DNA from: Ignavibacteria bacterium RIFOXYC2_FULL_35_21
Lineage (GTDB): Bacteria; Bacteroidota; Ignavibacteria; Kapaibacteriales; UBA2268
DNA length: 43,973 nucleotides
Direction: 5' to 3'
Assembly: GCA_001804705.1 (NCBI GenBank)
Contig: MHAY01000050.1
Location: 1-43,973 of the forward strand
In this document: piece by piece, positions 3,205-17,859 of the stretch
How positions within the stretch are numbered: the stretch's first letter is position 1
How the letters are laid out: each line of letters begins with the position of its first letter
Translations under genes and position numbers: made by a program
The notes under the pieces: generated by a model
What the model saw: the letters and a program-made list of their open reading frames with translations, nothing else
Database searches by the model: none
Told to the model about the DNA's origin: nothing

Positions 3205-4809
3205 ATGGCAAAAAACAATAAAGAACAACCTCTCGAACAGGCTCTCTGGCAGACGGCTGATAAGCTCCGTAAAAACATGGATGCAGCTGAATACAAGCAT
3301 GTTGTTCTCGGTCTGATATTCCTCAAATACATCTCCGATTCTTTTGAAGAGAAGCGTGGTCAGTTGGAATTTGAATATTCAAATCCGAAGAGTGAATGGT
3401 ATATAAAAGAGCCAAAGGAAAGATACAATGCTGTCGAAGATGTTGACGAGTACCGTTCATCCAATGTTTTCTTCGTCCCGGAAAAAGCACGCTGGTCATA
3501 TCTCAAGGATAATGCTAAACTGCCAAACATCGGCAAAATTGTTGATGATTCTATGGAGGAATTAGAGAAGCAAAATGCAACTCTCAAAGGTGTTCTGCCA
3601 AAAGAATATGCAAAGCAGGCACTCGACAAGCAAAGCCTCGGTCAGCTTATTGATATGATTAGCACTATTGCACTCGGTGATTCTAAAAGCCAGGCAAGAG
3701 ATGTATTGGGTAGAATATATGAATATTTCTTAGGTCAGTTTGCTGCGGCAGAAGGCAAAAAGGGTGGTCAGTTCTATACTCCCGAAAGTATTGTGAAATT
3801 GCTTGTAGCTATGATTGAACCATATCATGGACGTGTATTTGACCCTTGCTGTGGTTCAGGTGGCATGTTTGTCCAGAGTGAAAAGTTCATTCTGGCTCAT
3901 CAGGGCAAGATACATGATATTTCAATATTCGGGCAGGAATCCAATTCCACAACGTACCATCTTTGCAGAATGAATCTTGCCTTACGCAGTATTGACGGCT
4001 CTAATATCAAGTGGAACAACGAGGGAAGTTTCCTGAATGATGCACACAAAGACCTGAAAGCTGATTTTATTCTTGCTAATCCCCCATTCAACGACAGCGA
4101 CTGGTCTGGTGAAATGCTCCGAAATGATGCACGCTGGAATTATGGCGTTCCACCAACGGGTAATGCAAACTTCGCATGGGTTCAGCATTTCATCTATCAC
4201 CTGGCTCCTGCCGGTATTGCAGGTTTTGTTTTGTCGAATGGTTCTTTATCTTCCGAAACATCCAATGAAGGTGAAATACGCAAGAATATCATTGAAGCAA
4301 ATCTTGTGGACTGCGTTGTTGCCATGCCCGATAAATTGTTTTACAATACAGGTATTCCTGCCTGTCTTTGGTTCTTGTCCCGTGACAGGTCCAATCACAA
4401 GTTCAGGAACAGAAAGGATGAAGTTCTGTTTATTGATGCCCGTTCTTTCGGAACAATGATTGACCGCAAGCACAGGCTTCTCACAGAGGAAGACATCGGG
4501 AAAATTTCCGGTACTTTTCATAACTGGAGAAATAAACAGGATGCCCCCTTTGTCAAAGGGGGGAAGGGGGGATTTTATCAAGATGTGAAGGGCTACTGCA
4601 AGTCTGCTACAATAGAGGAAGTGAGAAAAAATAACTTTGTGCTTACTCCCGGCAGGTATGTCGGTGTGCCTGATGAAGAAGAAGACGATGAAGCATTTGA
4701 AGAAAAGATGAAAGCACTCACACAGGAACTTGCAGAGCAGATGAAGCAAGGGCTGGAACTTGACAAGAAGATAAAGGAGAATTTGAAGAGAATTGGTTAT
4801 GGATTTTAA
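3205..4809 (+). CDS. hsdM: Type I restriction-modification methyltransferase subunit HsdM (system 1)
   Basis: A 534-residue N6-adenine DNA methyltransferase subunit. The N-terminal helical HsdM domain ([20 protein letters not shown], residues 24-43) precedes the SAM-binding motif FDPCCGSGG (212-220) and the catalytic NPPF (292-295). Together with HsdS it would methylate the bipartite recognition site. It belongs to a different HsdM subgroup from the second hsdM at 6391 and has no complete partner hsdS of its own; only an hsdS start remains at 4969. Residues 446-459 ([12 protein letters not shown] core) are an in-frame insert from a GC-rich palindromic element. Its last 87 bases occur again at 4999-5085. 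Whether it works with the remaining HsdS or is an orphan methylase cannot be told from sequence. Confidence 0.93.
4544..4577. repeat. GC-rich palindromic element inserted in frame in hsdM1
   Basis: A perfect dyad (CCCCCTTTG, one base, CAAAGGGGG; 4544-4562) is followed by a GGAAGGGGGGA run. Its base composition stands out from the surrounding gene. It adds about 12 residues ([10 protein letters not shown] core) between the conserved HNWRN and VKGYCKSAT blocks, keeping the frame. Elements of similar design occur at 11984 (in hsdS) and 34081 (intergenic). Confidence 0.7.
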
Positions 4810-4840
4810 TATTACTCTTATAATAAATAAAGATAACAAT

Positions 4841-4889
4841 GCAATTGTGCAATTACCCCTTGCACAATTATCCTGGTACAATCATAATA
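4841..4889 (+). pseudogene. Fragment of a DUF1016-type gene with palindrome
   Basis: The stretch encodes AIVQLPLAQLSWYNHN, nearly the same as AIVQ...PLAQLSWYHH in the complete DUF1016 gene at 5075, so it looks like debris of an earlier DUF1016 copy. It contains the perfect inverted repeat AATTGTGCAA (4843-4852) / TTGCACAATT (4860-4869) with a 7-base loop, which recurs in modified form at 5436-5458. No start codon or longer frame is present. Confidence 0.55.
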
Positions 4890-4949
4890 TGTCGAAAAAT
4901 CGCTTATATTTCGACATATATTTTTGATATGACGATATTGTCGGCATAT
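4887..4949. promoter_or_regulatory. Two adjacent related palindromes, candidate operator
   Basis: The first dyad is ATATGTCGAAA (4887-4897) / TTTCGACATAT (4909-4919), a perfect 11-base stem. The second is ATATGACGA (4927-4935) / TCGGCATAT (4941-4949), 8 of 9 matched. Both share the half-site ATATGnCGA and their centres are 35 bp apart, close to 3.3 helical turns. This fits a cooperative repressor site upstream of the short chimeric frame and DUF1016. The first dyad followed by a T run could instead act as a terminator for hsdM1. Confidence 0.45.
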
Positions 4950-4968
4950 TTTAATTACAAAAAATACT

Positions 4969-5085
4969 ATGACCAACTGGAAAAAATATAAACCAATTCA
5001 GGAACTTGCAGAGCAGATGAAGCAAGGGCTTGAGCTTGATAAGAAGATAAAGGAGAATTTGAAGGGAATTGGTTATGAAATCTAA
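4969..5085 (+). pseudogene. Chimeric stub: first codons of a lost hsdS fused to a copy of the hsdM1 tail
   Basis: The frame reads MTNWKKYKPI and then [10 protein letters not shown]..., ending GIGYEI. The first ten codons look like the start of an HsdS subunit (typical form M-x-x-W-K-x-Y-K). The remainder, 4999-5085, is a copy of hsdM1 4723-4809. The 38-codon product is unlikely to be functional, but it is open from start to stop, and it contains AAGGAG and GAAGGG ahead of the ATG of the next gene, which starts inside it at 5075. The fusion marks where system 1 lost its specificity subunit. Confidence 0.7.
4999..5085 (+). repeat. Second copy of the hsdM1 3' end (87 bp)
   Basis: Aligned base by base with 4723-4809, the two 87-bp copies have the same length and about seven mismatches, and both end at a stop codon in the HsdM frame. 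The copy also carries the purine-rich ribosome binding sequence of the DUF1016 gene. Because it is diverged, it may come from a related operon and not from a recent tandem duplication. Confidence 0.85.
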
Positions 5086-6223
5086 AAAAAATCAAATCAT
5101 AAAAACAGATAGTCATTATAAAGATTTATTGGTTGACATAAAAAATCGAATCAAAGAATCCCAGCTCAAGGCAACTGTTACTGTCAACAAACATTTGCTG
5201 TTTTTATACTGGCAAATCGGAAATTTAATTCTCGAAAGGCAGGAAAGCGAAGGCTGGGGAACAAAAATAATAGATAATTTATCTCGGGACATTAAGTTGG
5301 AATTTCCCAATTTAAAAGGTTTCTCGCCAAGAAATTTGAAATATATGCGAAGATTTGCCGAACTTTATTCTAATAATTTTCTCCATAACCGTTTTAAAAA
5401 ACTACTTCCTGCACACATTCCCGGTAACAAAGCAATTGTGCAAGTACCTCTTGCACAAATTGAAGAAATGTTTATGCAAGTGCCTCTTGCACAATTATCA
5501 TGGTATCATCATATCACTCTGATGGAGAAGGTAAAGAATGTTGAAGACCGGCTTTGGTATATGAGCAGGGCTATAGAATATGGATGGAGCAGAAATATTA
5601 TGTTGATGCAAATAGAGAAGGAACTCTATGCAAGGCAGGAAAAGAAAAAGAAAATTACTAATTTCAGAATGACACTCCCCCCGCCCGATTCTGATTATGC
5701 AAATTATATGCTTAAGGACCCGTACATTTTTGATTTTATAAATGTATCTGCAAAGGCTCAGGAAAAGGATATTGAGGAACAATTGACAAATCATATTACT
5801 AAATTTTTGCTTGAATTAGGGCAGGGTTTTGCTTTTGTCGGCAGGCAATTTCATATTGAAATCGGTAGCGAAGATTATTATATTGACTTGCTTTTTTATC
5901 ACATTAAGCTGAAATGTTATGTTGTAATCGAGCTGAAGACAACTGATTTTAAACCTGAGTATGCCGGTAAACTGAATTTCTATATATCTGTCGTTAACGA
6001 TACCTTAAAATCTAAAACAGACAGCCAGACAATAGGTATATTACTATGCAAAGGGAGAAATGATATAGTAGCAGAATACTCTCTTGCTGCAATTAACAGG
6101 CCTATCGGCGTGGCAGATTACCAATTTATGCGGTCAATTCCGGAGAATTTGAAGACATCATTGCCAAGCATTGAAGAAATTGAAAAAGAACTTATGAATA
6201 ATACACAGTTTAAAAAAAAATAA
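5075..6223 (+). CDS. DUF1016 (YhcG-like) PD-(D/E)XK nuclease family protein
   Basis: A 382-residue protein. The N-terminal DUF1016_N domain is clear (LLFLYWQIGNLILERQ, then GWGTKIIDNLSRDIKLEFP), and the C-terminal nuclease domain has YIDLLFYH followed by VVIELKTTDF, a D...ExK core. The family often sits between hsdM and hsdS or hsdR, and is thought to be a restriction-associated nuclease, with the exact role unsettled. I prefer ATG 5075 over the TTG at 5069 because it follows the purine-rich AAGGAG/GAAGGG segment in the duplicated hsdM tail. The linker region reads QVPLAQIEEMFMQVPLAQLS, a near-tandem duplicate at the palindromic GTGCAAG/CTTGCAC elements (5436-5458 and 5475-5491). The normal family has a single AQLxWxHH here. 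Confidence 0.85.
   Translation: MKSKKNQIIKTDSHYKDLLVDIKNRIKESQLKATVTVNKHLLFLYWQIGNLILERQESEGWGTKIIDNLSRDIKLEFPNLKGFSPRNLKYMRRFAELYSNNFLHNRFKKLLPAHIPGNKAIVQVPLAQIEEMFMQVPLAQLSWYHHITLMEKVKNVEDRLWYMSRAIEYGWSRNIMLMQIEKELYARQEKKKKITNFRMTLPPPDSDYANYMLKDPYIFDFINVSAKAQEKDIEEQLTNHITKFLLELGQGFAFVGRQFHIEIGSEDYYIDLLFYHIKLKCYVVIELKTTDFKPEYAGKLNFYISVVNDTLKSKTDSQTIGILLCKGRNDIVAEYSLAAINRPIGVADYQFMRSIPENLKTSLPSIEEIEKELMNNTQFKKK
5436..5491. repeat. Palindromic GCAAG/CTTGC element, two copies inside the DUF1016 gene
   Basis: Copy 1 is TTGTGCAAG (5436-5444), TACCT, CTTGCACAA (5450-5458). Copy 2 is TGCAAG (5475-5480), TGCCT, CTTGCA (5486-5491). Each encodes QVPLAQ. A third copy lies at 4843-4869. The copies account for the doubled QVPLAQ peptide in the protein. 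Confidence 0.65.
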
Positions 6224-6390: not shown

Positions 6391-8142
6391 ATGCTCAACA
6401 ACAATTTTAAAGAGAAAGCGAATTTTATTTGGGGGATTGCTGACCTGCTGCGTGGGCAATACAAGCAGTCAGATTATGGTAAAGTAATACTGCCCTTTAC
6501 AGTATTGAGGCGACTGGATTTTGTCCTTGAGCCTACCAAGAAAAAAGTTCTCGAAGCATATATCAGGCATAAGGATAAAAAGCCTGAAATACTTGAGCCA
6601 ATACTGAATAATGTTGCTAAAGTGAAGTTCCATAATCGAAGTAAATTTGACTTCTATGAACTTGCTAAAGACCACAATAACATTGCTGCAAATTTAAGAA
6701 ATTACATCAATGGTTTTTCTATTGGAGCCAAAGAAATAATAGAGTATTTCAGCTTTGATGACCAGATAAAAAAATTGGATGAATATGACTTGCTGTATTT
6801 AATTATCAAAAGATTCGCTGAAGCCGAAGACATGTTCAAAGGTGTGAATACAATGGAAATGGGCTACGTCTTTGAAGAATTGATACGAAAATTTGCAGAG
6901 CTTAGTAACGAAACTGCCGGAGAACATTTCACACCACGTGAAGTAATTCGTTTAATGGTCAATTTGCTTTTCGTAAATGATAAGAAAATACTCAGGAAGG
7001 AAGGAATTGTTAAAACTCTCTACGACCCTGCTTGCGGGACAGGTGGAATGCTTTCTGTTGCAGAGGAATACTTACATGAACTCAATCCTGATGCCAAGCT
7101 TGAAGTGTTCGGACAGGAAATCAATCCTGAATCTTATGCAATTTGTAAATCCGATATGCTTATTAAAGGTCAAAATCCATCAAACATCAAATTTGGAAAT
7201 ACATTCACTCAGGATGGACTCACAGACGAAAGATTTGATTACATGCTCAGTAATCCTCCTTTTGGTGTAGATTGGAAAAAAGTAGAGAAATACGTTAAGG
7301 ATGAAAATGCGAATCTTGGATTTGCCGGGCGCTTTGGTGCCGGATTACCCCCGATAAGCGATGGTTCATTGCTTTTCCTTCAACACATGATTTCAAAGAT
7401 GAAAAGAGGTGCTGGTGGGACAAGGTTAGGAATTGTATTTAATGGCTCTCCCCTGTTCAGTGGCGGTGCGGGTAGTGGAACAAGCGACATCAGGAAATGG
7501 ATTTTTGAAAATGATATGCTCGAAGCTATTGTTGCAATGCCTGACCAGTTGTTTTATAATACTGGTATTTCAACTTATGTCTGGATTGTTACTGACCGCA
7601 AGAACAAAGAACGAAAAGGTAAAGTGCAACTTATTAATGCGACAGGTTCTGACAAGGATGACAAAGACAATCCTTTCTACAGTAAGATGCTCAGAAGTTT
7701 AGGCAACAAGCGAAAAGAAATACATGAAGAGGCTATAAAGTTCATCACCGAAATCTACGGTGAATTCAGGGAAAGTGAATACTGCAAGATTTTTGATAAT
7801 GAGGATTTTGGTTATTCGAGAATAACTGTAGAAAGACCTAAGAATGATGATAAAGGGAAAACAATATTAGATAAAAAAGGCAATCCTGTGCCTGATTCTG
7901 ATTTGAGGGATTACGAAAATGTACCATTAAAAGATGATATTGAAGAATATTTCAAAAGAGAAGTTTTACCTCATGTTCCAGACGCATGGATTGACTACAG
8001 CAAAACAAAAATCGGTTATGAAATAAATTTTACTAAGTATTTTTATAAATACAAACCATTACGAAGTCTCGAAGAAATCCGAGCCGATATTCTGGCTCTG
8101 GAAGACGAGACTGAGGGAATGATAAAGGAGATTATAAAATAA
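6391..8142 (+). CDS. hsdM: Type I restriction-modification methyltransferase subunit HsdM (system 2)
   Basis: A 583-residue N6-adenine methyltransferase subunit of a subgroup distinct from the first hsdM. The N-terminal domain reads FIWGIADLLRGQYKQSDYGK (residues 12-31). FTPREVIRLMV (180-190) leads to the SAM motif DPACGTGG (212-219) and the catalytic NPPF (288-291). The C-terminal helix LRSLEEIRADI is typical of HsdM/HsdS contact segments. Its stop overlaps the next start by one base (TAATG at 8140-8144), and AAGGAG a few codons upstream serves that gene, so translation is coupled. A diverged copy of its tail occurs at 9921-10003. With hsdS at 11305 and hsdR at 14866 it forms a complete type I system. 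Confidence 0.94.
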   Translation: MLNNNFKEKANFIWGIADLLRGQYKQSDYGKVILPFTVLRRLDFVLEPTKKKVLEAYIRHKDKKPEILEPILNNVAKVKFHNRSKFDFYELAKDHNNIAANLRNYINGFSIGAKEIIEYFSFDDQIKKLDEYDLLYLIIKRFAEAEDMFKGVNTMEMGYVFEELIRKFAELSNETAGEHFTPREVIRLMVNLLFVNDKKILRKEGIVKTLYDPACGTGGMLSVAEEYLHELNPDAKLEVFGQEINPESYAICKSDMLIKGQNPSNIKFGNTFTQDGLTDERFDYMLSNPPFGVDWKKVEKYVKDENANLGFAGRFGAGLPPISDGSLLFLQHMISKMKRGAGGTRLGIVFNGSPLFSGGAGSGTSDIRKWIFENDMLEAIVAMPDQLFYNTGISTYVWIVTDRKNKERKGKVQLINATGSDKDDKDNPFYSKMLRSLGNKRKEIHEEAIKFITEIYGEFRESEYCKIFDNEDFGYSRITVERPKNDDKGKTILDKKGNPVPDSDLRDYENVPLKDDIEEYFKREVLPHVPDAWIDYSKTKIGYEINFTKYFYKYKPLRSLEEIRADILALEDETEGMIKEIIK

Positions 8143-9893
8143 TGTCACTACCAGTCAATATTGATGAATTGATTAGCGGTAAAACTGTTGAATGGGAACG
8201 TATTGAATTCAAGGAAGGCTGGAATCCAGAACGGACTATCAAAACAATTTGTGCATTTGCTAATGATTTTAATAACTGGGGTAGTGGTTACATTATTATT
8301 GGAATTGAAGATAATAACGGTACTCCTGTTTTACCACCAATAGGTTTAAATGTTCTTACTATTGATTCAATCCAAAGAGAGTTGAACAATCTTTGCAGAA
8401 AAATTATCCCTAACTATTTTCCAATATCAGAACCAATTGATTATCAAGGGAAAAAAATTCTTATTTTATGGTGTCCCGGTGGTAGTAATAGACCTTACAA
8501 AGCTCCGGATAAACTTGGTGATAATCCAAGATATTTATATTTCATCAGGAAATTTTCTTCCACCGTCAGACCAACTCATGAGGAAGAAATTGAACTTATT
8601 TCTATGTCAAATCGAATTCCATTCGATGACCAAGTAAATCATTTGGCACAATTATCAGATTTTGACCTATCTTCAATCAAAATTTATTTAAACGAAATCA
8701 AAAGTGACCTTGAACAGCATATACATGATTTATCTATTCAGGACTTATCAAGAAGGATGAATATAGCAGAAGGTTCAAATGAATATTTGAAACCTAAAAA
8801 TGTTGGTGTTCTATTTTTTGCCAAAGACGTGAAAAAATTCTTCCCTTATGTTAAAATAGAAATTGTAACATTTTATGATGAATCTGGTACTAATTATACT
8901 GAAAAGATTTTCACTGAACAAATACACAATCAATTACAAAATGCACTTTCTTATTTAAAGAATAGTGTAATAAGAGAAAAAGTTGAAAAGATAGAAGGTG
9001 AAGCAGAAGCAAAGCGGTTCTATAATTATCCTTACGAAGCCATAGAAGAAGCTCTTTGCAATGCAGTTTACCATCGGGGTTATGATAATGATTCCTCAAT
9101 AGAAATAAGAATTTATCCTGACCGATTAAGCATAATCAGTTTCCCAGGTCCACTTCCTCCTCTTGATAAAGTTAAACTCCAAAATTTACAGTTTGAAGTT
9201 CGTAAATACCGAAATCGCAGGATAGGAGATTTTCTCAAGGAGCTTCACCTTACTGAAGGGAGGGCTACAGGTATCCCAACTATTATTAACGCACTCAGGA
9301 AGAATGGTTCTCCAAATCCTATATTTGAAACTGATGATGAAAGAACATTTTTCAAAGTAACTTTCCATATACATCCCGATTTTCATGTTAAGGACAAGGT
9401 CCAGGTTAAAGTTGATGGACATGAAATAAAATTAAATATTGAAGATGAACTAAAAGTCAGGACAGAGTTGGTACCAGAACTGGACCAAGTTGGCACCGAG
9501 TTAGCACCTAGCATAAAACAATTGAGTGTGCAAGTTAGTGTGCAAGTTAAGCTCTTTGTTATTAATAACTTAGATGAAGTTGTTGCTTGTTTTGACAAAT
9601 ATGGTGTACAAGCTGGTGTACAAGTTAGGGAGCAAGTCAGGAAACAAGTTGAAAAAAATAAAATTGATAATCTTATAAATCTATTGAAATTATGTACTAT
9701 TCCACAGACACGAACTAGTATCTTAGATTTATTACAACTATCAAATCATTATAAAAATTATAAAAACAATATCATTGTGTTAATTAACAATGGGCTGATA
9801 AAAATGACTATACCTGATAAGCCAAACAGCCCGAATCAGAAGTATATGACTACTGATAAAGGGAAAAAATTGCTCGAAATAATCAATAATTAG
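8142..9893 (+). CDS. RM-associated AlbA_2 / HATPase_c_4 ATP-binding protein
   Basis: A 583-residue protein. The N-terminal AlbA_2 (Schlafen-like, formerly AAA_4) domain shows EWERIEFKEGW and GSGYIIIGIEDNNG. A GHKL-type ATP-binding segment follows (EEALCNAVYHRGYD, then PDRLSIISFPGPLPP and EGRATGIPTI), and the C-terminal part is winged-helix-like. It corresponds to COG2865-type proteins annotated as putative transcriptional regulators and often found as extra genes in type I operons. Between about residues 440 and 505 is a low-complexity stretch of short Q-V repeats (QVSVQVK, VQAGVQVREQVRKQV), common in this family and perhaps prone to slippage. It starts on the TAATG overlap with hsdM2. The function in restriction is unproven; regulation or an extra defence effector are both possible. 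Confidence 0.85.
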   Translation: MSLPVNIDELISGKTVEWERIEFKEGWNPERTIKTICAFANDFNNWGSGYIIIGIEDNNGTPVLPPIGLNVLTIDSIQRELNNLCRKIIPNYFPISEPIDYQGKKILILWCPGGSNRPYKAPDKLGDNPRYLYFIRKFSSTVRPTHEEEIELISMSNRIPFDDQVNHLAQLSDFDLSSIKIYLNEIKSDLEQHIHDLSIQDLSRRMNIAEGSNEYLKPKNVGVLFFAKDVKKFFPYVKIEIVTFYDESGTNYTEKIFTEQIHNQLQNALSYLKNSVIREKVEKIEGEAEAKRFYNYPYEAIEEALCNAVYHRGYDNDSSIEIRIYPDRLSIISFPGPLPPLDKVKLQNLQFEVRKYRNRRIGDFLKELHLTEGRATGIPTIINALRKNGSPNPIFETDDERTFFKVTFHIHPDFHVKDKVQVKVDGHEIKLNIEDELKVRTELVPELDQVGTELAPSIKQLSVQVSVQVKLFVINNLDEVVACFDKYGVQAGVQVREQVRKQVEKNKIDNLINLLKLCTIPQTRTSILDLLQLSNHYKNYKNNIIVLINNGLIKMTIPDKPNSPNQKYMTTDKGKKLLEIINN

Positions 9894-9920
9894 TAATTAT
9901 GTAAAAAAAATATTGAATAA

Positions 9921-10003
9921 AACAATTACGTAGTCTTGAAGAAATCAGGGCTGATATTATGGCTTTGGATGCTGAAATTGATGGTAAGATAAATGAGATA
10001 TAA
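9921..10003 (+). pseudogene. Orphan hsdM 3' tail between accessory genes
   Basis: The sequence encodes LRSLEEIRADIMALDAEI and ends at TAA 10001-10003. This is the C-terminus of an HsdM, matching 8054-8142 (LRSLEEIRADILALEDE) but diverged and two codons shorter. No hsdM body precedes it: upstream is the AlbA_2 gene. The copy directly precedes the ATG of the HEPN gene (10005), just as the real hsdM2 tail precedes the AlbA_2 gene. It looks like a tail brought in from another type I operon with the downstream gene. Confidence 0.82.
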
Positions 10004-10004
10004 A

Positions 10005-11300
10005 ATGAAAAGACTTGACATTGAAAATATTAATTGGTACTTGTTCAATTTATATGGACTTCAGATTGAAGACCAGGATAATTGGCGTGATTTCATATTT
10101 GATGATGCTACAATAGTTAATGCAAAGCAACTAAAGGAATATCTTGAAGAAATTCAATACGATGAAAGACCAATTATCCATTATCTCTTTTCTCATTTTA
10201 AATCTGAACATACTTTTTTAATCGTTCAAAATTATGGAAAAATTGTAAAAGAAAATGAAAAAGAACTTCAAGCTCAAGCTGAAAAAAGAGCTTTAGAAGT
10301 CTCAGGATTTATATTTTTTGTATTCTTATTTTTATCTGATTTTAGAATTGGAATCTCTTTAGATAGTCAGATTTATGGAAGTCAAGGTAGTGAGATTAAC
10401 CTCTTAACAAGCTATAAAAGTCAATCAACTCATAATAAATATACTGCTGGTGAATATTCAATTTCTATACCTGATGAACCTTTGAGATATAGCAGAACAA
10501 AACTAATTAATTTATTTAATAAAATTCAGTTTAAGAGACTATATTATTTTGTCAAAACACGAAATGATAAAAATATTAATGAATCTTTATCAAATCTTTA
10601 TTTAACACTTAATGTTCCTTCTCCGATAACTCAATTGCTTGGAGCTATAACATCTATCGAAATTTTGTTAAAAGATGATATGAAATACGACAGGATAAGT
10701 GAGCGTATCAATACTATGCTCGGTGAGAAAATTTATAAAGATTTTGTTGAAACAAGTAAAGATAAAATTGGTGTCCTTAAAAAAAGACATAATGTAATCC
10801 ATCAGGGAGAACATTGTACAGATAAAGATGCTTATAGTGCTATAGTTGTCTCGTCTTATATTATTATTGTTTTTTCCCATTTAGTTCATCATTTCCCTAC
10901 AAAAAGTAAGATATGTAAACATTTAGATATAATACACAAAATTCAAAAGGACAAAGATTTGACCTTAGATATTTTTGGAATCATAGAAAAATGGGAAGCA
11001 ATAAAATTTGATTTAACATTGATTGATTGGACTGTGCAAAGACTGATTTATTATTTTGGTCTTTGCAATTCAAAAAAGAAGGAAGTTACAAAAGATAGCT
11101 TTACCCAAGCTATAGTATGGCATTCAAAAGTTAGGAATAACGATTTAGAAACTTCCTATAACTTGATTAAAAATTCTCTTTATTACAATGTAAGCCCAAT
11201 TAATAGCTTTGATGAATTGACAACATATTATGAAGAAAATAAAATTAATATTGATGAAGAGATTAATAAAAGTGAAAGATGGCACAAATTTATAGTTTAA
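10005..11300 (+). CDS. HEPN-domain protein, candidate RNase effector in the RM operon
   Basis: A 431-residue protein. Near the C-terminal half LLGAITSIEILLKDD and the helices around it end in KKRHNVIHQGE. R261-H-x3-H266 matches the R-(N/H/D)-x3-H motif of HEPN ribonucleases, placed as in ApeA-like and other abortive-infection HEPN proteins. The N-terminal 200 residues are unassigned; one hydrophobic stretch (FIFFVFLFLSDF, about 102-113) may be buried or membrane-touching. I chose ATG 10005, two bases after the stop of the orphan hsdM tail, over ATG 9993, which lies inside that tail. It is placed between the ATP-binding protein and hsdS, like PrrC-type anticodon nucleases that guard type I systems. 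RNase activity is inferred from the motif alone. Confidence 0.72.
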   Translation: MKRLDIENINWYLFNLYGLQIEDQDNWRDFIFDDATIVNAKQLKEYLEEIQYDERPIIHYLFSHFKSEHTFLIVQNYGKIVKENEKELQAQAEKRALEVSGFIFFVFLFLSDFRIGISLDSQIYGSQGSEINLLTSYKSQSTHNKYTAGEYSISIPDEPLRYSRTKLINLFNKIQFKRLYYFVKTRNDKNINESLSNLYLTLNVPSPITQLLGAITSIEILLKDDMKYDRISERINTMLGEKIYKDFVETSKDKIGVLKKRHNVIHQGEHCTDKDAYSAIVVSSYIIIVFSHLVHHFPTKSKICKHLDIIHKIQKDKDLTLDIFGIIEKWEAIKFDLTLIDWTVQRLIYYFGLCNSKKKEVTKDSFTQAIVWHSKVRNNDLETSYNLIKNSLYYNVSPINSFDELTTYYEENKINIDEEINKSERWHKFIV

Positions 11301-11304
11301 AGTT

Positions 11305-12678
11305 ATGCTAAAACAATACCCCAAATACAAACCCTCCGGCAATGATTTGATTGGCGATATTCCTGAGCATTGGAATATTAAAAAGTTAAAGTTTTTATTG
11401 AAACCAATAAAAGGTTCATTAAAACCTGGTCCATTTGGAAGCGATTTAAAAAATTCTGATTTTTCAACAATTGGTGAAATAAAAGTTTATACCCAAAGAA
11501 ATATAATTGAAAACAATTTTGAATTAGGTGAAGATTATATTTCGAATGAAAAATTTAATAAATTATCAGTTTTTGAAATATTTGAGAATGATATAATAAT
11601 TACTTCAAGAGGCACAATTGGAAAAGCTTCCAAGTTCCCAAAAGGAGTTCAGAGAGGTATTATTCACCCTTGTCTCATAAAATTACAAATTAATACTGAT
11701 AAAATTTCTAATGATTTTTTAATCAAATATTTCAATGATGCAGTATTTTTTAAAGAAGATGTTAAAATTTCTAGTAATAGTACAGTAATAGATGTTATTT
11801 ATGGGAACACCTTAAAAGAAATAAATATTTTTGTTCCTCCTATAGATGAACAAATAAAAATTGTAGAATTTATTAACAAAAAGACTGCTTTGATTGATTC
11901 CTTTATCGAAAAGAAGCAAAAGCTGATTGAACTGCTAAAAGAAGAAAGAACGGCTGTAATCAATCAGGCAGTAACAAAAGGTCTCCCCTCGCCATCCGGA
12001 GAGGGGCAGGGGGTGAGGTTTAAACCCAGCGGCATAGACTGGCTGGGCGATATACCGGAACATTGGGAAGTGAAGAAACTGAAGTATGTGGCAGAGATTC
12101 AATCAAGTAACGTTGATAAGAAAACAAATGAAGGAGAAATTTCAGTTCTACTTTGTAACTATATTGATGTTTATAAGAACGAATTTATTAACGATTCTAT
12201 TTTATTTATGGAAGCATCTGCAACCGAAAAAGAAATAGAAAAATTCATTCTCAATAAAGGAGACGTTTTAATTACAAAAGACTCTGAAACACCTGATGAC
12301 ATAGCAAAACCTGCATATGTTGAAAAAGATTTTGAAAATGTAATCTGTGGTTATCATTTAGCTCAGATAAAAACTAATCGACATGATATGTTTGGTGAGT
12401 ATTTGTTTAGACTTTTTCAATCAAAAGATTTCAATTCTCATTTTGAAGTTTCAGCAAACGGGGTAACGAGATTTGGGCTTCCACTTGATTCAATCACAGA
12501 CGTTATAGTTCCATTGCCTTTAAAGGCAGAACAAAAACAAATTGTAAATCATATTGAAAACGAAACACAAAAAATAGATTCAACAATAACCAAAATCGAA
12601 AAAGAAATAGAGCTGATGCAGGAATACCGGACTGCATTGATTAGCGAAGTTGTAACCGGGAAAGTGAAGGTGGTGTGA
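11305..12678 (+). CDS. hsdS: Type I restriction-modification specificity subunit HsdS
   Basis: A 457-residue specificity subunit with two target recognition domains. Each half opens alike (YKPSGNDLIGDIPEHWNIKK at 8-27; FKPSGIDWLGDIPEHWEVKK at 239-258) and each ends in a conserved helix (IDSFIEKKQKLIELLKEERT at 197-216; the second near the C-terminus ending EVVTGKVKVV). Each TRD should read one half of a split recognition site. Residues 227-238 (LPSPSGEGQGVR core) lie just where the first helix meets the second half and are encoded by a GC-rich palindromic insert, so spacer length or hinge geometry may be changed. ATG 11305 follows the HEPN stop by four bases. The 3' end is partly repeated at 12827-12856. 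Confidence 0.93.
   Translation: MLKQYPKYKPSGNDLIGDIPEHWNIKKLKFLLKPIKGSLKPGPFGSDLKNSDFSTIGEIKVYTQRNIIENNFELGEDYISNEKFNKLSVFEIFENDIIITSRGTIGKASKFPKGVQRGIIHPCLIKLQINTDKISNDFLIKYFNDAVFFKEDVKISSNSTVIDVIYGNTLKEINIFVPPIDEQIKIVEFINKKTALIDSFIEKKQKLIELLKEERTAVINQAVTKGLPSPSGEGQGVRFKPSGIDWLGDIPEHWEVKKLKYVAEIQSSNVDKKTNEGEISVLLCNYIDVYKNEFINDSILFMEASATEKEIEKFILNKGDVLITKDSETPDDIAKPAYVEKDFENVICGYHLAQIKTNRHDMFGEYLFRLFQSKDFNSHFEVSANGVTRFGLPLDSITDVIVPLPLKAEQKQIVNHIENETQKIDSTITKIEKEIELMQEYRTALISEVVTGKVKVV
11984..12019. repeat. GC-rich palindromic element inserted in frame in hsdS
   Basis: CCCCTC and GAGAGGGG flank a short loop, followed by CAGGGGGTGAGG. Its composition contrasts sharply with the AT-rich gene around it. 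It sits exactly at the hinge between the two HsdS halves and keeps the frame. Its layout (C-rich stem arm, loop, G-rich arm, then a second G run) parallels the elements at 4544 and 34081. Confidence 0.65.
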
Positions 12679-12719
12679 TGGAAGAAAAAGAACTTGTAAA
12701 ATTATTGAAAGAGTTATAA
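12678..12719 (+). pseudogene. 13-codon stub of a lost accessory gene after hsdS
   Basis: The ATG overlaps the hsdS stop (TGATG, 12676-12680) and the frame reads MEEKELVKLLKEL, then stops. The coupled start and the GAAGGTGG sequence upstream are those expected for a real next gene in the operon. The first residues (EKEL) resemble the start of the following AlbA_2 protein (MIEKEL), so this is probably the 5' end of an accessory gene whose body has been lost or replaced. Confidence 0.55.
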
Positions 12720-12826
12720 GTTTGGGACTATAAGTTTATGTGACGGTTATGTGATTAAGAGAATATTTCAATAATAAATCTATATATTTTTCAATGGATT
12801 ATAATGTGATTGATTTATTATTTTAA

Positions 12827-12856
12827 GAAGTGACTAGGAAAGTGAAAGTGGTGTAA
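12827..12856 (+). pseudogene. Orphan hsdS 3' tail before the second AlbA_2 gene
   Basis: The sequence encodes VTRKVKVV and stops at 12854-12856. This matches the true hsdS end VVTGKVKVV with its following start codon. It sits just before the ATG (12858) of the next gene, the same arrangement as the orphan hsdM tails. It is short, so the case rests on the match continuing through the stop and into the next gene start. Confidence 0.65.
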
Positions 12857-12857
12857 T

Positions 12858-14525
12858 ATGATTGAGAAAGAACTTCAAAATTATCTTTTTGATAATTATC
12901 CGAAAGAAAATGAATCCTGTGAGTGGAAGGGATTTCAATCATTAATACATTCAGTTTCTGGAAGCACTGGTGATGATATTATTTCATATATTTCAGCAAT
13001 TTCAAACATGGAGGGTGGTTCCTTATTGATAGGAGTAAAAGATGATACAATAGAAATTATTGGGATTAAAGAGTTCCATAATTATACAACCGATAATATC
13101 AAATTGAAAATACTGGAACAATGTCCAAATCTAACTTCCGAAGGATTTGATGTCGAGGAATTAATAGCGGAAGAGACTGGAAAAATAGTATGGATTTTTC
13201 ATATTCCAAAACATAAACCAAGACAGCCTGTTCTTGCCCACAATCGTATTTGGCAAAGGGTTAACGATAGCCTTGTAGAGATAAGACCTGAAAGAAAAGA
13301 AGCTATCCTAAGTGAACCTGCATATTCTGAGGACTGGAGTGCCGGAATTGTTCCGGATGCAACAATTGATGACTTAGACTATGAGGCAATTAAATTAGCT
13401 AGAAAAAATTACAAAGAAAAATCCCCTGGATTAGCTCTTGAGGTTGATTCATGGAATGATATAACATTTCTTAATAAAGCAAAAATTATTATAAGAGGAA
13501 AAATTACAAGAACTGCAATAATCTTACTTGGTAAGCAAGAGTCAGAACATTATATAAGCCCAGCAGAAGCTAAAATTAGGTGGATACTTAAAGATAGTAA
13601 AGGGGTAGAAAAAGATTATCAAATTGAAGGTTGCCCTTTATTATTATCGCTAAATAAAATATATATAAAGATTCGTAATTTGAAATATAGTTACCTTAAA
13701 GATGGGACATTATACCCTGAAGAAATGTTAACATATGAGCCATTCACAATAAGAGAAGCAATTAACAATTGCATAGCACATCAAGACTATACAAAGAGTG
13801 GAAGGATTAATGTCATTGAATTTGATGACCAGCTTGTTTTTTCAAATTTAGGCTCATTCATTCCCGGTTCAGTAGAAAAAGTCATTATTGAGGATGCACC
13901 TGAAGAGCATTACCGAAATAAATTTCTTACAACAGCCATGTTAAATTTGAAAATGGTTGATTCAATCGGGAGCGGAATTAGAAAAATGTTCAATTTTCAA
14001 AGAGCAAGATTTTTCCCTATGCCCGACTATGATTTGTCAGGGGGTAAGGTTAAAGTAACTATAATAGGGAAAGTATTGGATATGAATTATGCAAGTTTAC
14101 TTGCTCGGAACATAGATTTATCATTGGATGATATAATATTATTAGATAAAGTACAAAAGAAACAAACATTAACATTAGAAGCTGAGAAATATTTAAGAAA
14201 AAATGGTTTAATAGAAGGAAGAAAACCGAATTACTTCATTTCATTAAAGATTTCTAAAAAAACAGGATTAAAAGCTGTTTATACAAAAAATAAAGCCCTT
14301 GATAAAAAATATTATCTGGATTTAATTATTAGAGCTATAATTCAACATGATGTTTTAACAAGGAGTGATGTTGATGAATTATTGTGGAAAAAGTTACCTG
14401 AATGGATGAATGAAAATCAGAAAAAAGCTAAAATAAATCATTTGTTGACAGAACTTAGAATAAAAGGCGACATTAAAAATGTTGGTTCTGATAGAAGTCC
14501 TAAATGGATTCTGTTAAAGAATTAA
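12858..14525 (+). CDS. Second RM-associated AlbA_2 / HATPase_c_4 ATP-binding protein
   Basis: A 555-residue protein with an N-terminal AlbA_2 domain (SYISAISNMEGGSLLIGVKD; VWIFHIPKHKPRQPVLAH; RIWQRVNDSLVEI) and a GHKL-type segment (REAINNCIAHQDYTKSGRIN; FSNLGSFIPGSV; VDSIGSGIRKMFNFQ). The C-terminal part looks like two winged-helix segments. It is only distantly like the AlbA_2 protein at 8142, so the two are separate acquisitions and not a tandem duplication. It lies between hsdS and hsdR and is preceded by an orphan hsdS tail. Proteins of this type are common in type I loci; the role is unknown, with nucleic-acid binding and ATP-dependent signalling the likely options. Confidence 0.85.
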   Translation: MIEKELQNYLFDNYPKENESCEWKGFQSLIHSVSGSTGDDIISYISAISNMEGGSLLIGVKDDTIEIIGIKEFHNYTTDNIKLKILEQCPNLTSEGFDVEELIAEETGKIVWIFHIPKHKPRQPVLAHNRIWQRVNDSLVEIRPERKEAILSEPAYSEDWSAGIVPDATIDDLDYEAIKLARKNYKEKSPGLALEVDSWNDITFLNKAKIIIRGKITRTAIILLGKQESEHYISPAEAKIRWILKDSKGVEKDYQIEGCPLLLSLNKIYIKIRNLKYSYLKDGTLYPEEMLTYEPFTIREAINNCIAHQDYTKSGRINVIEFDDQLVFSNLGSFIPGSVEKVIIEDAPEEHYRNKFLTTAMLNLKMVDSIGSGIRKMFNFQRARFFPMPDYDLSGGKVKVTIIGKVLDMNYASLLARNIDLSLDDIILLDKVQKKQTLTLEAEKYLRKNGLIEGRKPNYFISLKISKKTGLKAVYTKNKALDKKYYLDLIIRAIIQHDVLTRSDVDELLWKKLPEWMNENQKKAKINHLLTELRIKGDIKNVGSDRSPKWILLKN

Positions 14526-14865: not shown

Positions 14866-17859
14866 ATGAGCAATATCCACACCGAATCAACATTTGAATC
14901 AGCTATTGTCGGACATTTAACCGATAATGGCTGGCATTTAGGGAATGACAGTGATTACAGCACTGATTTAGCTTTTGATAAAAAGGCAGTCATTGACTTT
15001 ATTCAATCATCCCAACCGAAAGAATGGGAAAAGCTGATAGCATATTATAGAGAAGATACTGAAAGTAAGTTTGTCCAGAGGCTTTTCAAAGAGCTTGATT
15101 TAAGGGGTATGCTTGATGTTGTTCGACATGGCATAACCGATAGTGGAATAAAATTCAAACTTGCCTACTTCAAACCCGACAGTGGATTGAATCCTGAAAC
15201 ACTTGAATTATACAAGCTGAACAGATTGTATGTAACTCGTCAGGTTCATTTTTCACAAAAGAATAATAAAAGTATTGATTTACTTTTGTCATTGAATGGA
15301 TTGCCGATTGCAACAATTGAATTGAAGAACATATTCACGGGACAGTCTGTTAAAGAAGGTATTACCCAATATCAGACAAGCCGTGACCCAAGGGAATTAC
15401 TCTTCCAATTCAAAAAAAGGGTACTAGTGCATTTTACAATTGACTCCGACAATGTACATCTCACAACAAAACTTGAATTCTCAAATACAAAGTTTTTACC
15501 TTTCAACAAAGGTTTTCACAACGGAGCCGGCAACCCTCCTGCAAAGGATTACCAGTCATACAGGACATCTTACTTCTGGGAAGAAATGCTGGCACCTGAT
15601 AGCTGGCTTGAGATAATCGGCAGATATATACATATTCAAAAAGAAGATTACATTGTTGACGGGAAGAAATATTCAAAGGAGAAAATGTTATTCCCCCGTT
15701 ATCATCAAATTGATTCAGTACGAAAGTTGACGGCAGACGCAAAAATAGCAGGACAAGGGAAGAATTATCTTGTGGAACATTCTGCCGGCAGTGGTAAAAG
15801 CAATTCAATTGCATGGCTGTCATACCGCCTCAGTAGTCTTTACAATACTAATGATAAAAAGATATTCGATTCAATAATTGTCGTAACCGACAGAAATGTG
15901 CTTGACCAGCAGTTGCAGGATACAATCTATCAGTTCGAGCATAAGCAAGGAGTTGTCCAGCGTATTGACGAAGATTCCAAACAGTTAGCAGAAGCTATAA
16001 CACATGGAACAAATATAATAATTACTACCCTGCAAAAATTTCCATTTGCATTGAACCATTTATCGGAAATCCCTAACCGCAATTATGCAGTTATTATTGA
16101 TGAAGCCCACAGCAGCCAGGGTGGAGAAGCAAGTCGTAAAATGACTGAGGCACTTGCCGGAAAGAATGTTTCGTTGGAAGAGTCCGAGAAAATCGAAAGT
16201 GGTATTGAGAAGGAATCAATTGACGAAGATGATTACATTCGGGAAACAATAAGAAAGCGGGGACCTCAAAAGAATATCAGCATTTTCGCTTTTACTGCAA
16301 CTCCCAAAGCAAAGACATTAGAAGTTTTTGGTGTAAAAGACTCAGAAGGTATTCCCAGACCATTTCATTTGTATTCAATGAAGCAAGCCATAGAAGAAGG
16401 ATTCATACTTGATGTTCTCAAAAATTACACGACATATAAAGAGTATTACAAATTTTCAAAATCAATAGAAGATGACCCTGAGTTAAACAAGAAAAAAGCT
16501 ATCAAAGCCATTGCCCGATTTGCTTCACTACACCCTCATAATTTAGCACAAAAAACAGAGGTAATGGTTGAACACTTCCGGCAATTAACGATGAAAAAAA
16601 TCGGAGGCAGGGCAAAAGCTATGGTGGTTACATCTTCCCGGAAACATGCACTTCGATACTATCAGGAATTCAAAGAGTATATAAAAGAGAAAGGATATTC
16701 GTACATAAAACCGCTTGTTGCGTTTTCAGGAACAGTATATGATGATGATTTTCCAGAAGGGATAACTGAAGCACAAATCAATAAATTTAGTGAAACAGAG
16801 TTACCCGGTAAATTTGCTACAGATGAATTTCAGGTTTTACTTGTTGCGGATAAATACCAGACCGGATATGACCAACCGCTTCTTCACACGATGTATGTTG
16901 ATAAAAAATTATCTGGGGTAAAAGCAGTTCAAACACTTTCAAGACTGAATAGAACTCATCCGGGCAAGGAAGATACTTTTATTATGGATTTCCAAAATGA
17001 CAGAGAAACAATAATCGAATCATTCCAACCTTATTATGAATTGACGACATTAACTGAACCAACAGACCCGAATCATTTGTACGACCTGAAAGGCAAAATG
17101 GATGCCTCTAAAGTGTATTTCCAATCTGAGATTGATGCTTTTGCTAAAATATTTTATAAACCAACACACACATCCATTAAGGACCAGGGAAAATTATATG
17201 CGTATATTGACCCTTCGGTTGACAGATTCAAAGTATTAGAGGAAGAAGCACAGGATGAATTTAAAAAATCATTAACAGCTTATGTACATTTATATTCTTT
17301 CCTCTCTCAAATCATGCCATTTCAGGATGTCGAATTAGAAAAACTCTATTCCTTTGGACGTTTCTTATTAACAAAATTACCAAAGGCGGATTATACAGAA
17401 CGAATGAAGTTAGATAATGAGGTTGCTTTAGAATATTATCGTCTTCAAAAAATTGCTGATGGGAGTCTTGTTTTACAGATACAAGGTGAATATGGCTTAG
17501 ACCCGACAACTGAAGCCGGTATCAGCAGACCAAAGGAGGAAAAGGACAGACTTTCAAACATCATCAAAGTACTGAATGATAAATATGGAACCGAATTTAC
17601 GGATGCTGACCGCTTATACTTTGACCAGATTGAACAAGCTTTGTATGAGAATGATGAGCTTAAAGTCAGAGCCATGAATAATCCAATTGAAAATTTTAAA
17701 TACGCATTTGATGAGATATTTATACAAACACTCATTGACCGTATGGATTCTAATCAGGAGATATTCGATAGAATAATGGGTAATAATGATTTCAAGATAG
17801 ATGTTCGGGAATGGCTGACAAAAAAAATATATCAGAGATTTAATGAAATTGTACAATAA
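14866..17859 (+). CDS. hsdR: Type I restriction endonuclease subunit HsdR
   Basis: A 997-residue motor and nuclease subunit. The N-terminal PD-(D/E)XK nuclease has [19 protein letters not shown] (137-155). The SF2 translocase follows, with Walker A HSAGSGKS (305-312), DEAH (412-415), FTATP (476-480) and the helicase C segment [12 protein letters not shown] plus [11 protein letters not shown]. Length and all motifs are normal. It is the EcoR124-like form that lacks the DUF3387 C-terminal segment and ends YQRFNEIVQ, fitting the hsdM2 subgroup. A 340-bp gap separates it from the preceding gene, so it may have its own promoter. The debris of a different hsdR follows it by only two bases. Confidence 0.95.

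Follow-up and report, generated by a model that had tools for sequence, protein, structure and literature searches.

What is the end of an hsdM gene doing between two accessory genes, and from which hsdM did it come? This question was raised by a type I restriction operon of Ignavibacteria bacterium RIFOXYC2_FULL_35_21, which lies on a contig of 43,973 nt (MHAY01000050.1), the whole of which is hereafter called the window. Loci and genomes used for comparison are denoted by numbers preceded by L and G, respectively.

Arrangement of the type I operon

The genes of the operon are all located on the forward strand, in the order hsdM1 (3205-4809), a YhcG/DUF1016 nuclease gene (5075-6223), hsdM2 (6391-8142), an AlbA_2/HATPase accessory gene (AlbA_2a, 8142-9893), the displaced hsdM tail (9911-10003), an accessory gene with an R-x4-H (HEPN-type) motif that encodes a predicted ribonuclease effector (10005-11300), the specificity subunit gene hsdS (11305-12678), a second AlbA_2 gene (12858-14525), and the restriction subunit gene hsdR (14866-17859). 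The hsdM2 gene is a complete type I methyltransferase subunit gene having N6_Mtase and HsdM_N domains, and its product is 85% and 81% identical to those of L047 and L041, respectively. The hsdR gene is also related to that of L047 (80% identical), the locus carrying the closest relative of hsdM2. In L047, hsdM is directly followed by hsdS, with neither AlbA_2a nor the HEPN-motif gene in between, whereas a homologue of AlbA_2a (58% identical) was found behind an HsdM2-like hsdM in L214 of G694, with one small gene separating the two. Both junctions in the window are tight: the ATG of AlbA_2a and the stop codon of hsdM2 have one base in common (TAATG), and the ATG of the HEPN-motif gene, at 10005, lies 1 nt past the stop codon of the tail.

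A second displaced tail, a copy of the 3' end of hsdM1 (92% identical over 87 nt), is present at 4999-5085 and overlaps the start of the YhcG gene at 5075. Its extent was taken from the comparison of 3'-end copies, as the best match in the tail alignment was the original tail itself. The space between hsdM1 and YhcG (4810-5085) also holds a decayed YhcG-like scrap, with 34 nt matching the YhcG gene.

Identity of the displaced HsdM tail

The open frame of the tail at 9917-10003 comprises 28 codons and reads IKQLRSLEEIRADIMALDAEIDGKINEI up to a stop codon at 10001-10003; the tail itself reads LRSLEEIRADIMALDAEIDGKINEI up to its stop. An ungapped match to residues 551-581 of HsdM2 begins at 9908 and crosses an in-frame TGA at 9914-9916. 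When the own genome was searched, the tail was matched by HsdM2 alone with an E-value of 6.2e-4 and by the tail profile A4 with 9.1e-11, the latter match covering positions 9-38 of the 40 in the profile, and a tail HMM made without HsdM2 gave 1.8e-8. At the DNA level, the local score of 85 was well above the maximum of 39 obtained among 30 codon shuffles. No methyltransferase domain is attached to this end, which consists of a 28-aa open frame with the TGA upstream and the AlbA_2 gene (stop at 9893) before it. These observations confirmed 9911-10003 as homologous to the last approximately 30 codons of a type I HsdM, standing without its gene.

The preliminary description of this stretch, in which an HsdM C-terminus was recognized behind an AlbA_2 ATPase gene, was thus borne out by the profile match and by the AlbA_2 and HATPase_c_4 domains (annotated as SLFN_AlbA_2 and HATPase_c_4) encoded upstream. 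It was equally correct in stating that the tail differs from that of hsdM2 and is two codons shorter than the hsdM2 end (...GMIKEIIK, stop at 8140-8142).

The HEPN-motif gene and its relatives

HEPN ribonucleases, such as the Apea-like proteins, carry an R-x4-H motif and are found in defence loci. The protein encoded behind the tail resembles them in having this motif within a defence locus (RHNVIH in the window), and the motif, R[HN]x[VIA][IV]H, is aligned in the five family members whose sequences extend to it; the remaining member, in L040, is cut short ahead of the motif. It is unlike them in that neither the protein nor its family profile is matched by any family model or solved structure: the window protein had no match in Pfam, PADLOC or NCBIfam at the limits used, and the profile had none among solved structures. 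One relative, other than the window member, matched PRD_Mga at 0.0018. A structure model from the single sequence was of unusable quality (mean pLDDT 38). The HEPN label comes from the R-x4-H motif, which supports it without proving it. The motif and the setting make it probable that this protein acts with the restriction system as an effector that cuts RNA.

Homologues of this gene were found in L038, L039, L040, L127 and L133, and relatives occurred in five of the 123 genomes of the order, including that of the window, whereas the searched genome contigs, viral contigs, plasmids and phages yielded none. In L038 (G047), the ATG of the HEPN-motif gene overlaps the hsdM stop codon with an offset of -4, and in L039 (G002) the gene lies approximately 111 nt behind an hsdM that begins at the contig end. 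Three of the six family members, those of G106, G052 (recovered by profile search) and G018, stand alone outside hsd loci, and no tail was detected in the stretches around them (best E-value 0.54). The genes thus form a small HEPN-motif family, the window member of which has no Pfam match, occurring either behind hsdM or alone in relatives of this genome.

The slot behind hsdM

Comparison of 88 loci, a set in which one place is counted twice (as L042 and L060) and a few hsdM genes are cut at contig ends, revealed that the space between hsdM and hsdS in this hsdM subfamily is a slot with changing contents. AlbA_2-type genes stand right behind hsdM in L058, L064 and L077, as well as in L200, and of the 88 loci only the window has both an AlbA_2-type and a HEPN-motif gene. 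Among the 80 loci with a usable next gene, the start codon of that gene, taken as the nearest in-frame ATG, was located at most 15 nt from the hsdM stop codon in 50; in 39 of these 50 the offset was -4 or -1, that is, an ATGA or TAATG overlap.

In L041 (G001, 7437-13382), the gap between hsdS and an hsdM that is 81% identical to hsdM2 holds five open frames, the first of which is related to the window gene at 55-1320 (32%) and is DUF262-like by eye.

Displaced tails in other genomes

Screening of two overlapping sets, 391 genomes from the class and 395 from the phylum, with the 40-position tail profile yielded 10 places with an open frame of less than 130 aa at E-values of 1e-4 or below. Sixteen regions were inspected in all, among them the hsdM operons of G655 and G259, which were used for comparison. 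Reading of the neighbourhoods left eight displaced tails, namely those of the window, G493, G550, G155, G313, G167, G393 and G275, with a weaker ninth in G440. The tails of G167, G393, G275 and G440 may go back to one event, since these genomes share one genus code and the left edges of the tails are similar, at 122-130 nt before the stop codon. The displaced tails of G493 and G167 closely resemble the hsdM of their own operon. Two of the 10 places, G704 and G294, were ruled out as frameshifted hsdM genes; of the other regions, G510, G585 and G500 proved to be chance matches, and the match in G145 is the end of an hsdM cut off by the contig border.

A start codon near the tail end was kept in seven of the 13 displaced tails measured (L122 being left out of this measurement) and was absent from the other six. 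In six of the seven it lies within 11 nt of the tail stop codon, and in G313 it lies approximately 9 nt beyond the aligned tail. In G167, a Shine-Dalgarno-like AAAGGAGG was seen by eye right before the overlapping ATG.

Copies of 3' ends (last 120 nt) were detected for five of the 88 hsdM genes and for 11 of the 563 other open frames, one of these 11 being hsdM1. Such copies are thus only modestly more frequent for hsdM, and a duplication peculiar to the hsdM 3' end was only weakly supported. Copies of the first 120 nt were found for 14 of the 563 other frames, and for the hsdM 5' part there was one 27-nt copy, in L112. A tblastn search of plasmids with the hsdM2 end returned 709 records.

Further copies were seen in other settings. 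Four related loci among the five hsd loci of Poribacteria (L112, L120, L122 and L124) have strong short copies of the hsdM 3' end downstream, at varied distances, and the fifth, L110, has only a weak one. The copies are 29-46 nt long, and some lie within wider repeats; that of L124 is part of a 194-nt repeat running past the stop codon. The short copies and the L124 repeat look like plain segmental duplication. In L061, a 78-nt stretch at approximately 4927-5004 is a 77% copy of sequence near the hsdM 3' end and stands upstream of the gene, approximately 3.9 kb before the hsdM end.

Association of tails with the genes behind them

The tail-plus-gene unit was clearest in G155 (L189), where an AlbA_2 gene is preceded by 69 nt of an hsdM end joined to it and the 15 kb read contain no hsdM. 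In G655, hsdM is directly followed by an AlbA_2 gene whose protein is 84.5% identical to that of G155, and the homology between the two genomes begins 69 nt ahead of the hsdM stop codon and extends into the AlbA_2 gene, interrupted by one gap of 1 nt. Homology across the junction was likewise observed between G393 and G167, including 126 nt of the hsdM end, and between G393 and G230 (L185) at the protein level. The preliminary description had considered the tail in front of the HEPN-motif gene the clearest case of a tail-plus-gene cassette; that place belongs to G155, which matches the hsdM-AlbA_2 pair of G655 across the junction.

The gene following the tail was then compared with the genes behind hsdM elsewhere, the 154 of which include repeated places and some incomplete hsdM frames. 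For nine of the 11 displaced tails tested, homologues of the following gene were located at most 160 nt behind hsdM in another locus; in two of these nine, L124 and G440, the nearest ATG of the gene is approximately 200 and 690 nt, respectively, after the measured tail end. The 11 were taken from 14 aligned tails, leaving out G493, where the next gene is hsdS, and L112 and L122, which have no gene at the tail end. Control frames of at least 100 aa from the same loci, some of which are probably not genes, had a homologue behind hsdM in four of 80 cases, or in four of the 25 having any homologue in the collection, which is rich in hsdM loci and favours matches near hsdM for cases and controls alike. 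The four positive controls were an hsdS, another part of the same YhcG gene, the frame of the tail, and the gene at 55-1320 of the window. The cassette of tail plus HEPN-motif gene suggested in the preliminary description stood in part: the HEPN-motif family does occur behind hsdM (L038, L039) and tail-plus-gene units do recur, but no exact donor was found among the loci compared.

In L189 (5123-9833, with the strand turned), the tail and the AlbA_2 gene lie between a 724-aa gene, whose end is receptor-like by eye, and a copy of the end of that gene. The copy is partial and 93% identical, and corresponds to the last 119 residues. This layout, a full gene, an insert and a 3' copy, is the same as in the hsd loci.

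Origin of the tail

Compared with the hsdM ends of the 88 loci, the orphan tail scored 91 with L047, 90 with L041 and 88 with the resident hsdM2 at the protein level, while at the DNA level hsdM2 was best (48) and L041 next (43). Between the tail and hsdM2, pS was 0.62 and pN 0.12 over 25 codons (p = 8.5e-4 for the synonymous excess); pS between the tail and L041 was about equal (0.59), and hsdM2 differed from L041, L047 and L071 with pS values of 0.79-1.07. As the change relative to hsdM2 is mostly synonymous, the tail diverged for the most part as the terminal piece of a working HsdM2-like protein and not as a fresh decaying copy. This favours a different but related hsdM allele as its source. 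Judged from sequence, the donor would be an HsdM2-like allele and not a distant hsdM, because hsdM2 has the closest tail at the DNA level.

No hsdM bearing this exact tail and followed by this HEPN-motif gene, the arrangement that the preliminary description had proposed to look for, was found in the loci compared: the hsdM tail of L038 is less like the orphan than that of hsdM2 (73 vs 88), and that of L039 is outside the 22 best matches. The earlier view that the tail came from a different hsdM held in so far as the tail is no recent copy of hsdM2 (pS 0.62, pN 0.12). The closest likeness to hsdM2, which the preliminary description had named as an observation that would refute it, was seen at the DNA level (48 vs 43) but not at the protein level, where hsdM2 ranked third (88).

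A source within the operon itself deserves consideration: the end of the resident hsdM2 may have been duplicated in tandem long ago, at the insertion of the AlbA_2 gene, without any foreign hsdM taking part. Such a duplication would explain why no other hsdM end in the 88 loci matches the tail as well at the DNA level as that of hsdM2, and it has parallels in the tail copy of hsdM1 in the same window (92% identical to hsdM1) and in G493 and G167, whose displaced tails closely copy the hsdM of the same operon. A pS of approximately 0.62 together with a pN of only 0.12 would be hard to reach for an untranslated fragment behind an in-frame TGA, and the synonymous distance to L041 is about equal (0.59). 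We regard an old local duplication as unlikely. We assign a comparably low probability to the opposite history, in which the tail, the HEPN-motif gene and hsdS were the residents, and an incoming hsdM2 with AlbA_2 replaced the old hsdM except for its last 30 codons. The AlbA_2a homologue (58%) behind the HsdM2-like hsdM of L214 is in keeping with this replacement, as both genes may travel together, whereas the common closest relative of hsdM2 and hsdR, L047 (85% and 80%), speaks against it, since hsdM2 looks no newer than hsdR.

Proposed mechanism

We consider it fairly probable that the tail was once the 3' end of an HsdM2-like hsdM and was displaced together with the HEPN-motif gene that this end overlapped or touched. 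The similar tails in other genomes suggest more generally that defence genes starting at the end of hsdM carry that end with them in their moves. In these operons the gene after hsdM usually has a start codon on the hsdM stop codon, and its ribosome-binding region would be placed inside the last hsdM codons. With the start signals inside hsdM, excision, copying or recombination of a gene together with them takes a piece of hsdM along; such a gene would need the hsdM end for its translation, and a piece carrying a working gene would thus carry the tail. In the window, two such genes appear to have been stacked in one slot, where hsdM2 with AlbA_2 stands upstream of the tail with the HEPN-motif gene and hsdS. 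Today the tail probably serves as a leader, guiding ribosomes to the HEPN-motif start codon.

As for the recombination itself, it would be illegitimate or guided by short homology and not catalysed by a site-specific enzyme, because the left break differs between lineages. Genomic islands at tRNA genes offer a known model for the latter, in which the integrase rebuilds the gene end and the old end is left behind. An integrase inserting accessory genes at a fixed site in the hsdM 3' end, rebuilding that end and leaving the old one behind, would produce the topology observed here, a full gene, an insert and a 3' remnant. The left edges of the displaced tails, however, lie at varied distances ahead of the stop codon, between about 36 and 225 nt, and define no fixed site, for which reason this mechanism was dropped, and no integrase was present among the eight operon proteins scanned; we consider it very improbable. 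Slightly less likely still is an assembly chimera of two strains, conceivable in a draft genome of 105 contigs, since arrangements of the same kind occur in other genomes and, by eye, the AlbA_2/tail junction contains no repeat that could cause a false join.

Beyond the displaced tail itself, we tentatively raise the possibility that the hsdM 3' end may act as a portable adaptor, supplying ribosome-binding and stop-start signals as well as enough homology to recombine, so that accessory defence genes could be plugged in, stacked and moved between type I operons without a recombinase.

Comparison with known systems

Davidov and Kaufmann described, in 2008, the rloC gene of Geobacillus kaustophilus beside an hsdR relic. 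This relic, upstream of rloC, is the nearest precedent that we saw in the literature (PMC2610378). According to that account, the relic is a 568-aa C-terminal part of hsdR, lies next to rloC in an IS4-family transposon, and has a complete copy elsewhere in the genome (PMC2610378). The two cases are alike in having an accessory nuclease gene behind a 3' hsd relic, of which the same genome also holds a complete copy. The window is unlike rloC in that approximately 30 hsdM codons directly adjoin the start of the following gene, in an arrangement that recurs with different genes, and in that there is no transposon among the operon proteins.

Inserts in the hsd loci of Campylobacter jejuni have been named rlo (Miller 2005, as cited in PMC2610378), and prrC of EcoprrI is embedded in a type IC operon (PMC3874165). 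These systems share with the window the presence of defence-like genes between or beside hsd genes, but the passages available from both accounts (PMC2610378, PMC3874165) mention no copies of hsdM tails travelling with the accessory gene, unlike the window. In EcoKI, hsdM and hsdS overlap and are translationally coupled (PMC3510504), and the gene after hsdM starts at the hsdM stop codon, as in the window. The window differs from EcoKI in that an accessory gene follows, the coupling is presumed from the overlap, and an hsdM end is separated from its gene. Among the full-text matches listed, judged by title and the beginning of the abstract and drawn mostly from outside the subscription literature, none described hsdM tails travelling with accessory genes.

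The passages on restriction-modification systems cited above leave the entry and exit of accessory genes at type I restriction operons without explanation. A displaced hsdM tail would be a readable scar of the origin of an accessory gene, even away from hsd loci. The explanation proposed here predicts that the start signals of such an accessory gene lie inside hsdM, which would let the movement of defence genes between operons be tracked and tested.
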